From: Pseudomonadota bacterium
GTDB taxonomy: Bacteria > Pseudomonadota > Gammaproteobacteria > Burkholderiales > Methylophilaceae
Length of the DNA: 35,114 bases
Assembly (NCBI GenBank): GCA_029781535.1
Contig: JAKOWL010000234.1
Span: 1-35,114, forward strand
Direction of reading: 5' to 3'
The notes under the pieces are model-generated. The model saw only the letters and a list, made by a program, of their open reading frames with translations. It ran no database searches and was not told the DNA's origin. Positions 2,697 through 34,520 of the stretch are shown here, one piece after another (the first letter of the stretch is position 1; every line of letters begins with the position of its first letter). A program made the translations under genes and the position numbers.

Positions 2697-2773
2697 TGGC
2701 GCACCCGGCGGGAGTCGAACCCACGACCTTTGGCTTCGGAAACCAACACTCTATCCAACTGAGCTACGGGCGC
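2697..2773 (-). tRNA. tRNA-Arg(CCG)
   Basis: A complete 77-base cloverleaf on the minus strand. The acceptor stem is GCGCCCG with CGGGTGC, discriminator G, and CCA is encoded. The anticodon loop TTCCGAA gives anticodon CCG, reading CGG arginine codons. The T arm carries GGGTTCGACTCCC. The intact 3' end is the likely integration target of the neighbouring integrase. Confidence 0.96.
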
Positions 2774-26643: not shown

Positions 26644-26675
26644 AGTTGTAATTAACATAAGGCTTGGTCATTCCA

Positions 26676-27464
26676 ATGATAGAAGAGAAACAACGTCAAA
26701 GTCGGCAAACGGGCGAGAACAGCGGCATTTTGCGTGAAAAGGGCATTTATCTGCTCCCTAATTTGTTTACCTCGGCAGCCTTGTTCTCAGGTTTCTACGC
26801 AATCGTCTCGGCAATGAACTCTAAATTCGAGCTGGCGGCGATAGCGGTTTTTATTGCGATGGTGATGGATGGTCTGGATGGACGGGTAGCCAGGATGACC
26901 AACACACAAAGCGCGTTCGGTGCAGAGTACGATAGCTTGGCTGACATGGTGTCGTTTGGCGTGGCCCCCGCGTTGATCATGTATGAATGGGCGCTGGGAC
27001 CGCTGAAAAAACTGGGCTGGATCGCCGCGTTCATCTATTGTGCTTGTGCCGCATTACGCTTGGCACGGTTCAATACGAAGTTAGATGATCCATTTCAGGA
27101 TAAACGGTATTTCCAAGGGCTGCCCAGCCCGGCAGCTGCAGCGTTACTGGCTGGTTTTGTATGGGTGTCGAATGAGTACAGCATTACCGGGCGTGAAATC
27201 TTTTTTGGGGTCATTCAGATGAAATGGCTGGCCTTTGGTGTGACTGTGTTTGCAGCTGGTTCGATGGTTTCTGACCTGAAATTCTACAGCGGCAAGGATA
27301 TCAACCTGCGTGAGAGCGTGCCGTTTGTAACCGTTCTGGCTATCGTGCTGGGGTTTGTGCTGGTCTCATATAGTCCGCCGGAAGTGCTGTTTACCGTGAT
27401 GCTGGTGTATGCGTTGTCCGGTTACTACATGTGGGTCAAATCCAACATTAAAAAGTCCAACTGA
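26676..27464 (+). CDS. pssA: CDP-diacylglycerol-serine O-phosphatidyltransferase
   Basis: Makes phosphatidylserine from CDP-diacylglycerol and serine, the precursor of phosphatidylethanolamine, in the inner membrane. The 262-residue protein has several helices and the CDP-alcohol phosphatidyltransferase signature DG-x2-AR-x8-G-x3-D-x3-D, visible as DGRVAR...FGAEYDSLAD. The start is taken at ATG 26676; the TTG at 26664 is an alternative with an AAGG too close to it. This is the Bacillus-type (membrane) enzyme, as usual in betaproteobacteria, where pssA often sits next to leuA. Confidence 0.93.
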   Translation: MIEEKQRQSRQTGENSGILREKGIYLLPNLFTSAALFSGFYAIVSAMNSKFELAAIAVFIAMVMDGLDGRVARMTNTQSAFGAEYDSLADMVSFGVAPALIMYEWALGPLKKLGWIAAFIYCACAALRLARFNTKLDDPFQDKRYFQGLPSPAAAALLAGFVWVSNEYSITGREIFFGVIQMKWLAFGVTVFAAGSMVSDLKFYSGKDINLRESVPFVTVLAIVLGFVLVSYSPPEVLFTVMLVYALSGYYMWVKSNIKKSN

Positions 27465-27494
27465 GGCAATTAAAAACTTTCATAGGTTAACTGC

Positions 27495-27523
27495 TTGATA
27501 ATTCTAGCTAAAGCCGCTATATT
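27495..27523 (+). promoter_or_regulatory. Promoter of the leu leader-leuA transcript
   Basis: TTGATA (27495-27500), an exact 17-base spacer, and TATATT (27518-27523). The leader ORF's ATG begins seven bases after the -10, so the expected transcription start is at or next to the A of the ATG. Confidence 0.65.
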
Positions 27524-27530
27524 CTTAACC

Positions 27531-27629
27531 ATGGATTTTCATTCACCAGTTCAAGTTGTCTTCATCTGCACAAGCCTGTTGTTAGGCTTGCGTTCTGCTC
27601 TGCGTCTGCTGCGCGCAAGCGCACACTAA
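27531..27629 (+). CDS. Leucine-rich leader peptide upstream of leuA
   Basis: A 32-codon ORF ending 95 bases before leuA. Seven of its codons are leucine: three in a row (CTG TTG TTA, codons 16-18), then codons 20, 24, 26 and 27, plus three valines and one isoleucine. The middle reads TSLLLGLRSALRLLR. It has no Shine-Dalgarno but sits directly at the predicted transcription start, so a leaderless message is likely. By composition and position it resembles the leader peptides (LeuL type) that sense charged tRNA-Leu. Without an alignment to relatives it remains a strong candidate, not proven. Confidence 0.7.
   Translation: MDFHSPVQVVFICTSLLLGLRSALRLLRASAH
27571..27623 (+). promoter_or_regulatory. 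Alternative RNA pairings inside the leu leader
   Basis: CAAGCCT (27571-27577) pairs perfectly with AGGCTTG (27584-27590). Part of that second arm, GCTTGCG (27586-27592), can instead pair perfectly with CGCAAGC (27614-27620). The third region can also fold locally as TGCGC-GCAA-GCGCA (27610-27623). The pairings exclude one another, as in an attenuator. A strong T-tailed terminator is missing; only a weak GCTGA/TCAGC stem at 27661-27678 followed by A/T-rich sequence is seen. Confidence 0.5.
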
Positions 27630-27724
27630 ACTTAATCCCAATTTACGTACTATTAGGCTCGCTGAAAATTGTCTCAGCAGTTAAAATTTATTATTGAATT
27701 TAAAGCATTGATTTAGGAATTTAC

Positions 27725-29272
27725 ATGGACAACATTATTATTTTTGATACCACGTTGCGCGATGGTGAGCAGAGTCCGGGCGCAGCCATGACCAAAGAAG
27801 AGAAGATTCGTATCGCACGCCAGCTTGAGAGGTTGGGTGTGGATGTGATTGAAGCAGGTTTTGCCGCCGCCAGCCCTGGCGATTTCGACGCTATCCATAC
27901 TATTGCCGGCTTGATCACCAAATCCAAAGTCTGTTCGCTCGCGCGCGCCAGTGAAAACGATGTACGCCGTGCAGGGGAAGCGATACGCCCGGCAATGGAA
28001 CATCCTGAGAAAAATGGCCGTATCCATACCTTTATTGCAACTAGCAAGATCCACATGGAAAACAAGCTCCGCATGACGGAAGACCAGGTGGTGGAGCGTG
28101 CGGTGCAAGCGGTGAAATGGGCGTTAGAGTATACACATGATGTCGAGTTTTCAGCCGAGGATGCGGTACGTTCGGATATCGATTTTCTTGTACGCGTGTT
28201 TGATGCAGTGATTGCGGCAGGTGCCAAGACCATCAATGTGCCGGATACCGTGGGTTACAGCATCCCTGTTGTATGGGGTGAGCGTATGGCGACGTTGATC
28301 AAACGCGTCAAAAACAGCGATAAAGTGGTGTGGAGTACACATTGCCACAACGATTTAGGCATGGCGGTGGCAAACTCCTTGTCTGCGGTGTTGAATGGTG
28401 CGCGTCAGGTGGAATGTACCATCAACGGTTTGGGAGAACGCGCAGGCAACGCCAGTTTGGAAGAGATTGTCATGGCAATCAAGACCCGTCGCGATATCTT
28501 CAATCTCGATACACGCATCGATACTACGCAAATCGTACCGGCGAGCAAGTTGGTATCGACAATCACGGGTTATCCGGTACAGCCTAACAAGGCTATTGTG
28601 GGTGCCAATGCGTTCGCGCATGAAAGCGGTATCCATCAGGATGGCGTCCTCAAGCATCGCGAGACTTACGAAATCATGCGCGCAGAGGATGTGGGTTGGA
28701 ACGCAAACAAACTTACTTTGGGCAAGCTTTCAGGACGCAACGCGTTTCGCACGCGTTTGAAAGAGCTTGGCATTGAATTGGAAAGTGAGGACGCACTTAA
28801 TGCCGCGTTCGCGCGCTTCAAGGATTTGGCCGACAAGAAATCCGAGATATTCGATGAAGACTTGCATGCGTTGGTGAGTGATGAGTTCGTGTCGGAGGCT
28901 GCGGAAACCTATAAATTGGTGTACTTGCAGGTGACCTCGCAAACCGGCGAGACTCCACATGCGTTGGTGACCATTTCCGACAACGGTGCTGAGAAGAAAT
29001 CTGAAGCAGATGGCGGCGGCCCGGTGGATGCGACTTTCAAGGCCATCGAGCATATCGTCAACAGCGGTGCCGAGTTGCAGCTTTATTCAGTCAATAACGT
29101 CACCAGTGGTACGGATTCGCAGGGCGAGGTTACTGTGCGCTTCTCCAAAGGAGGACGTATCGTCAATGGGCAAGGTGCGGATACCGATATCGTGATAGCT
29201 TCTGCCAAAGCGTACTTGAATGGTTTGAACAAGTTGCATGCGAAGTCGCATAAACTGAACCCGCAGGTGTAG
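27725..29272 (+). CDS. leuA: 2-isopropylmalate synthase
   Basis: Condenses acetyl-CoA with 2-oxoisovalerate, the committed step of leucine synthesis. The 515-residue type-1 enzyme has the TIM-barrel start [19 protein letters not shown], the metal site [30 protein letters not shown] and [12 protein letters not shown], followed by the C-terminal leucine-feedback domain from about residue 390. AGGAA lies six bases before the ATG. A Leu-rich leader ORF with its own promoter precedes it. Confidence 0.98.
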
Positions 29273-34444: not shown

Positions 34445-34520
34445 GGGGTGTTAGCTCAGCTGGTAGAGCAGCGGACTTTTAATCCGTTTGTCGTGGGTTC
34501 GATCCCCGCACACCCTACCA
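34445..34520 (+). tRNA. tRNA-Lys(UUU)
   Basis: A 76-base cloverleaf. The acceptor stem GGGGTGT pairs with ACACCCT (with a G-U first pair), CCA is encoded, the anticodon loop CTTTTAA gives UUU, and the T arm has GGGTTCGATCCC. Confidence 0.96.

Follow-up and report, generated by a model that had tools for sequence, protein, structure and literature searches.

A short leucine-rich open reading frame precedes leuA in the Methylophilaceae genome studied here. Judged by comparison across genomes, this leader ORF most likely senses leucine shortage and switches leuA on, in this genome and in many other betaproteobacteria. Its mRNA very probably begins at, or a few bases from, its own start codon. 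The whole stretch of DNA that was analysed, 35,114 nucleotides long, is referred to as the window; it comes from a genome of 2.39 Mb in 252 contigs that is 94.7% complete. The features of the locus are collected in Table 1.

Table 1. Features of the leuA leader locus and its surroundings in the window
Feature	Position	Strand	Details
tRNA gene	2700-2773	-	Rfam search of the window
pssA	26664-27464	+	Upstream neighbor, outside the leader unit; gene calling and profile match
-35 box TTGATA of the leader promoter	27495-27500	+	Sequence read; spacer of relatives
-10 box TATATT of the leader promoter	27518-27523	+	Ends 7 nt upstream of the leader ATG; spacing in relatives
Leucine leader ORF	27531-27629	+	32 codons, 7 Leu; stop TAA at 27627-27629; same-place leaders in relatives
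P0 hairpin, CAAGCCTG-TTGT-TAGGCTTG	27571-27590	+	CTG/TTG/TTA Leu codons in and beside the loop
P1 hairpin, TGCGC-GCAA-GCGCA	27610-27623	+	Starts inside the last Leu codon, ends 3 nt before the stop
C-rich, G-poor unstructured tract	27630-27651	+	After the stop; weak in the window (6 C and 1 G in 22 nt)
P2 hairpin	27657-27681	+	Lies after the C tract and before the leuA ribosome site; -7.5 kcal/mol for 27657-27690
leuA ribosome-binding region, TTTAGGAAT	27712-27720	+	Sequence read; TAGGAA-like element before leuA in many close relatives, by eye
leuA, 2-isopropylmalate synthase	27725-29272	+	NCBIfam NF002087, 888.7 bits (cut-off 729)
tRNA gene	34445-34517	+	Rfam search of the window

The leader ORF and its relatives

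The first-pass annotation had described a 32-codon ORF with seven Leu codons, three of them consecutive, ahead of leuA, and had placed its ATG seven bases 3′ of a TTGATA-17-TATATT promoter. Re-translation of 27531-27629 reproduces the ORF exactly: the peptide is MDFHSPVQVVFICTSLLLGLRSALRLLRASAH, followed by the stop, with the consecutive triplet at residues 16-18. The coordinates of the promoter are likewise confirmed, with a spacer of 17 nt between the two boxes and 7 nt (CTTAACC) between TATATT and the ATG at 27531. Sigma-70-like matches are not rare in themselves, as 2 were found in 27200-27900 against 1.0 expected. The window promoter stands above chance because it recurs in relatives with the identical distance to the ATG; a chance ORF or a chance promoter is ruled out by this recurrence together with the spacing controls described below. 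A known Rfam element (T-box, leu leader or others) was rejected as the identity of the locus, since at gathering score the window matched only the two tRNAs and six relatives had no match. Between 27380 and 27780 one sub-threshold match was seen, to a snoRNA model on the opposite strand (E 3.2). A plasmid search with the leader region gave no match, and no leaders were seen by eye before ilvB and leuC in the same genome.

Leu-rich ORFs were sought upstream of leuA in relatives, as had been proposed, and they recur in Methylophilaceae, in Gallionellaceae-type loci and in 27 other families. For Methylophilaceae, 130 upstream regions (30 loci plus 100 fetched) were read out of 147 genomes with a LeuA match. 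By rule and by eye, a Leu-rich leader is present in 87 of these regions, covering 21 of 24 genera; one of the 87, L104, was scored in the wrong register. The best -35 box lies at a 17-nt spacer in 71 of the 87. The closest named LeuA records are those of Methylotenera, Methylophilus and other Methylophilaceae. Beyond these, 28 of 30 further loci carry a leader, mostly in Gallionella or Gallionellaceae and also in Thiobacillus, Hydrogenophilales and unclassified bacteria, the typical peptide being MHFSTHIATLHSTFSLLAALLLRGAR before the stop. This count covers L177-L211 (35 loci minus 5 Methylophilaceae duplicates) and leaves out L132-L176. The rest of the order was sampled with 120 genomes, of which 113 outside the family had a match and 99 regions were read (12 had only distant matches and 2 lay near a contig end). 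Leaders were found in 51 of the 99, in 27 of 43 other families. The first motif had missed 20 of the 99 loci; these were later read and are within the 51, outside the spacing, RNA and terminator statistics. The leader-like ORFs of L274, L279 and L303, which have no box or Leu-Arg tail, were not counted. Searches in families f30 and f47 gave 60 loci, from which 35 new leaders were kept. In a set of 146 leaders, Leu is the commonest residue (24.5%).

The leader is missing from a number of close relatives, and this counts against the mechanism proposed below. It is present in 6 of the 22 genomes of the window's own genus, as peptides that vary much in length and sequence, and absent from the other 16; all 25 genomes of genera g14, g16 and g18 are without it, as are 48 of the 99 regions from the rest of the order. 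Two further Methylophilaceae genomes have no scored leader, one of them, L017, carrying a leader-like ORF that starts with TTG.

Since length and sequence vary among the leaders of the window's genus, selection on the peptide was measured in other clades. Among 21 distinct 26-codon MHFS leaders, synonymous changes make up 65% of the codon differences, where placing the same changes at random would give 27%; the counts, here and below, are over all sequence pairs, which are not independent. Without the last 8 codons the figures are 69% and 25%. Eight MFFNR leaders give 63% against 29% (0.67 against 0.28 without the last 8 codons), and three sets of g7 leaders give 49, 92 and 36% against 21, 31 and 20%. 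The g20 leaders show hardly any excess (36% against 30%). The synonymous-codon conservation that the first-pass annotation had wished to see in relatives was thus found in MHFS, MFFNR and g7 and barely at all in g20, all of them clades other than the window's. In the first three of these, the comparison supports purifying selection on the leader peptide.

Start of the leader mRNA

For the spacing test, ORFs were picked on peptide criteria alone and the best-scoring promoter was taken from -100 to about +25. The 244 regions comprised 239 distinct ones, of which 158 passed the peptide rule and 102 had a single in-frame ATG. In 84 of these 102 leaders the distance from the end of the -10 box to the ATG is 5-10 nt, compared with 2 of 102 leuA ATGs and 40 of 1020 shuffles. 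Eight of the 18 misses belong to genus g20, and in some cases the wrong ORF had been picked. The mean anti-Shine-Dalgarno duplex energy is 0.02 kcal/mol at the leader ATGs against -4.55 kcal/mol at the leuA ATGs (n = 102), and a Shine-Dalgarno of -5 kcal/mol or better between -20 and -3 precedes only 1 of 102 leader ATGs compared with 45 of 102 for leuA. None was seen by eye upstream of the leader ATG in the window.

These numbers bear on another possibility, that the mRNA is longer, with its start a few bases farther upstream or at another place, and that a normal ribosome translates the ORF from it. The -10-to-ATG spacing was also tabulated for 181 leaders preselected for a nearby -10-like box, where it spans 5-10 nt: 6 or 7 nt in 126, 9 nt in 40 and 10 nt in 6. 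With a transcription start assumed 7 nt after the -10 box, the predicted 5′ UTR would be 0-1 nt in 126 of the 181, the window included, and 3-4 nt in 46. Leaders of the latter type, together with the 18 of 102 whose best promoter lies outside 5-10 nt, are what a longer mRNA would predict. The lack of a leader Shine-Dalgarno and the spacing in the other 84 argue strongly against it, and we regard a longer mRNA as very improbable. Judging by the comparisons, this is very probably a leaderless, translated leucine leader. The earlier claim, that the message probably starts at the AUG and needs no Shine-Dalgarno, agrees with the promoter spacing, and anti-Shine-Dalgarno duplex energies revealed no usable ribosome site upstream of the ATG (n = 102). 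Neither of the two outcomes that the first-pass annotation had named as refuting its reading is seen in the comparison. "Leaderless or nearly so" is the safer wording in view of the 46 leaders that would have a 5′ UTR of 3-4 nt. Since the leaders are related and not independent trials, the number of clades is a better guide than the sequence counts.

The 146 leaders used for most RNA statistics are those among the 158 with a -10-like hexamer 5-11 nt upstream. The 12 dropped include L272 and some real leaders for which the wrong ORF had been chosen (L023, L043, L046, L047). In L272 (family f25), the in-frame codon 7 nt after TATATT is ATC, and the ORF has its sole ATG 28 nt away from the box. 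This ATC may be a lost start, an error or a non-standard start.

Hairpins and the C-rich tract

The P1 hairpin is generally GC-rich; it begins at the final Leu codon and either includes the stop or lies before it. At this place the best hairpin has a mean energy of -7.57 kcal/mol, against -2.23 kcal/mol after shuffling. P1 was identified by an anchored rule in 129 of 146 leaders; most of the 17 misses have LRLAR-like ends, at which the rule picks a wrong Leu as its anchor, and three have a terminator. A single alignment for P1 or P0 was tried and rejected, as the differing loop lengths prevent it from keeping the arms in one register; P1 pairs were instead counted per hairpin. G-C/C-G swaps are seen at two pairs and C-G/T-A at a third, in counts biased towards pairing because the hairpins were chosen for it. 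Genus g20 has another codon in place of the last Arg codon, and the two arms of P1 change in concert (CTGCC..GGCAG), suggesting that the hairpin, and not the Arg residue, is kept. The stop codon lies in the P1 loop in L024, L025 and L094 and after P1 in L002 and L012, while P1 stays put with respect to the C tract and the final Leu codon. In the window's own genome the P1 pattern is seen 4 times, once at the leader, and a reversed control pattern 1 time; the pattern alone is therefore not specific.

Outside f47, 67 of 163 leaders have P0 5-11 nt before the P1-adjacent Leu codon, where codon shuffles would lead one to expect 8.3. The distance peaks at 7-8 nt. There are 46 distinct stem-clade combinations, and the mean over 43 clades is 0.53 against 0.05. 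A Leu codon is in or by the P0 loop in 64 of the 67. By this rule P0 is missing in the other 96 leaders. The window is among these, because the 3′ end of its P0 is 18 nt before the reference Leu codon; the window thus has P0, P1, the C tract and P2, with P0 farther from P1 and a weak C tract. The f47 leaders have P0 in 0 of 17 cases (0.5 expected). Covariation of P0 in one register lends modest support and is not convincing: paired cells amount to 67.2%, compared with 62.5% in shuffles (6 of 500 reach this value), and the score was reached by 154 of 500 shuffles.

The P2 region folds better than shuffled sequences, with group mean z-scores from -1.35 to -1.76 and -1.22 overall. Four of its pairs have changes on both sides among 29 MHFS leaders. 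RNAalifold, applied to these 29 leaders, found P2 and part of P0 and did not find P1.

The stop codon is followed by C-rich, G-poor RNA. In 146 leaders, the first 10 nt contain 47% C and 10% G and the next 10 nt 34% and 8%; 85% of leaders are unfolded (above -0.5 kcal/mol) over the 22 nt that follow the stop. In 141 leaders the tract varies less in position relative to P1 (sd 3.2 nt) than relative to the stop codon (sd 5.7 nt). Such behavior, with the C tract fixed to P1 while the stop codon moves, is what would be expected of an RNA unit, as is the replacement of the last g20 Arg codon along with its matching 3′ arm. Theoretically, P0, P1 and the C tract could then be where an RNA-binding protein docks, with the leader ORF as only a part of the control. 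Leu codons are retained beside both hairpins, however (in 64 of 67 cases for P0 and by definition for P1, which starts at the last Leu codon), and we consider such a protein site rather improbable.

Control of leuA and the off step

No intrinsic terminator was found in window positions 27200-27900. By a loose rule (a fold below -9 kcal/mol and 5 of 8 T), a terminator-like site follows the leader in 18 of 18 f47 leaders, 8 of 21 f30 leaders and 1 of 30 others, and in none of 81 Methylophilaceae and 31 Gallionellaceae-type leaders. A strict rule flags fewer, 2 of 146 leaders and 6 f47 leaders. With their start arranged in the same way, the leaders of f47 and some of those of f30 resemble ordinary attenuators. 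The excess of C over G in the 22 nt is 6.7 in leaders without a terminator (n = 154) against 3.3 in those with one (n = 27; p = 5e-06, the sequences being related), and several f47 leaders keep the C excess despite their terminator. Upstream of trpE in the window's genome (contig C35, L377), a short ORF with three Trp, MQLSWCNSWRWPQ before its stop, was seen by eye, followed by GCGTGTTAACACGCCTTTTT. This ORF and its U-tract terminator look like a classical trp attenuator, and the genome is thus apparently able to make U-tract terminators.

With Leu codons at both hairpins, a probably translated leader and terminators in related families, ribosome-mediated attenuation is the natural reading, and from these comparisons we consider ribosome-mediated control of leuA highly probable. 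It could work as follows. The promoter, with its -10 box 7 nt before the ATG, would produce a leaderless or near-leaderless mRNA opening with the 32-codon Leu-rich ORF, and a ribosome would initiate directly on the 5′ AUG and translate the leader. When charged tRNA-Leu is scarce, the ribosome would slow at the Leu codons, which lie by the P0 loop and immediately before P1. The stalled ribosome would cover P1, often P0, and the RNA beside the C-rich tract, and transcription would continue into leuA. When leucine is ample, the ribosome would finish and depart, P0 and P1 would fold, and the C-rich, G-poor RNA would be exposed. Transcription would then end before leuA, most likely through Rho. Rho is the likeliest off step because a C-rich, G-poor unfolded tract stands in the place of a U-tract terminator; even so, we propose it tentatively, at a little under an even chance. 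If true, ribosome loading on a 5′ AUG would time a Rho-dependent attenuator.

The start site, the leucine response, the direction of the switch and the Rho step are what we infer from the arrangement. Comparative support comes from the recurring ORF, selection in other clades, the spacing, the lack of a Shine-Dalgarno, the hairpins, the C tract and the missing terminator. Several points count against the mechanism: the weak C tract of the window, the short G-poor stretch, which at about 20 nt we regard as short for a self-sufficient Rho site, and the unproven role of P0 and P1 in a Rho model. Taken as a whole, a near-leaderless leucine leader with ribosome-set hairpins and a Rho-type stop before leuA seems to us slightly likelier to be right than wrong.

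The off step could also be that of classical attenuation, in which P0 or P1 would re-pair when the ribosome stalls and P2 or P1 would terminate without a U-tract. Leaders of the same arrangement do precede U-tract terminators in f47 and part of f30. In f30, pairing between the leader RNA and the 5′ arm of the terminator exceeds that in shuffles (mean z -1.60; 4 of 8 at p <= 0.05), and the folding of P2 beyond shuffles is in line with such a role. However, terminator-like sites are absent from the Methylophilaceae and Gallionellaceae-type leaders, the 3′ part of P1 has no excess pairing with downstream RNA (group mean z 0.07, -0.41, 0.13), and none stands out for the P0 arms (group means between -0.90 and 0.33). 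A classical 2:3 antiterminator in the terminator-less type thus gave no signal, in a test of low power that excludes little, as f47 leaders with real terminators reach only z -0.29 (2 of 18 at p <= 0.05). We consider classical attenuation unlikely.

The missing terminator would also suit a leader that acts on the translation or stability of leuA mRNA, for example by hiding its ribosome site. Such hiding has been proposed for the actinobacterial LEU element, whose Leu codons pair with the leuA Shine-Dalgarno in its published description (PMC1262725). In the leaders studied here, leader-to-Shine-Dalgarno pairing is at chance (group mean z -0.08, -0.03, -0.15), and that of the C tract with the Shine-Dalgarno falls slightly short of chance (0.10 to 0.45). 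On this basis the idea of a hidden leuA ribosome site was rejected, and action on translation or stability has, in our opinion, a low probability.

Returning to the Rho-type stop, a broader picture may be drawn from the comparison, with more doubt than attaches to Rho itself. In much of one betaproteobacterial order, leuA may be under a leaderless leucine-sensing leader with hairpins framing the Leu codons, a C tract and a Rho off step; f47 and part of f30 may have exchanged this module for a U-tract terminator, or the change may have gone the other way, the leaderless leader being retained. One leader arrangement, started on its own AUG in many genera, would then be joined to two apparent off switches in related families. 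Two off switches behind one leader type would amount to a natural experiment on the timing of attenuation by leaderless initiation and on the interconversion of intrinsic and probable Rho-dependent termination. The arrangement also provides a simple annotation rule for the small ORF before betaproteobacterial leuA.

Known leaders and other elements before leuA

Attenuation is usually taught with a leader ribosome site and a U-tract terminator. Enterobacterial leuL, a Leu-codon leader before leuA, has both a normal ribosome site and a U-tract terminator. The window locus shares the Leu-codon leader with it, but neither the ribosome site nor the U-tract terminator was found there. E. coli tnaC is a Rho-dependent leader that senses free tryptophan via a stalled peptide. 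In tnaC and in our proposal for the window alike, access of Rho would depend on a ribosome that has reached the end of a short ORF; for the window this would come about through slowing at Leu codons. The C-rich, G-poor, unstructured RNA after the stop that characterizes a tnaC-like leader is found in the leader group and is weak in the window. A literature search by title and the start of abstracts found no description of a betaproteobacterial leuA leader, which may be mentioned in the work of Vitreschak et al. 2004, reportedly on proteobacterial attenuators. A word search of PMC2965389 found no occurrence of leuA or leu.

Leaderless leader peptides have already been published for other bacteria, going by excerpts of the papers below, and the betaproteobacterial leuA case was not found described. 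In Streptomyces lividans, LeuL1 is described as a leaderless leucine leader peptide before leuA without a typical Rho-independent terminator (PMC8079986), like the arrangement predicted for the window. It differs in having 15 residues with four consecutive Leu and in belonging to another phylum, and excerpts of its description do not mention P0, P1 or the C tract (PMC8079986). The trpL/rnTrpL attenuator RNA of Sinorhizobium meliloti also starts at the ATG, but concerns tryptophan, with a 14-residue peptide, in an alphaproteobacterium (PMC7298713). Corynebacterium diphtheriae has a leaderless branched-chain amino acid leader peptide as well, before ilvB, and the same study was unable to assign a start site to its leu leader (PMC5784534). 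The LEU element is the nearest known system in function, as it combines a Leu-codon leader before leuA with conserved RNA structure and an unclear mode of regulation (PMC1262725); the pairing of its Leu codons with the Shine-Dalgarno sets it apart. In the same source, tna is named as a Rho-dependent precedent (PMC1262725). We judge the hairpins and the missing terminator, neither of which appears in the first-pass annotation, to be a more unusual part of the window arrangement than its leaderlessness.

Some other elements were noticed upstream of leuA. In examples from the window's own genus, g1, that have no leader (L038, L040, L042, L051, L052, L058, L065, L082 and L092), pssA is followed by a terminator-like hairpin, and most of them show a TGGTCA-17-TAAAAT-like candidate promoter, identified by eye, immediately before leuA. 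In many close relatives a TAAAAT/TAGAAT box follows P2 (27682-27687 in the window), and a similar box was seen by eye before leuA in genomes without the leader. This box may be a second leuA promoter.
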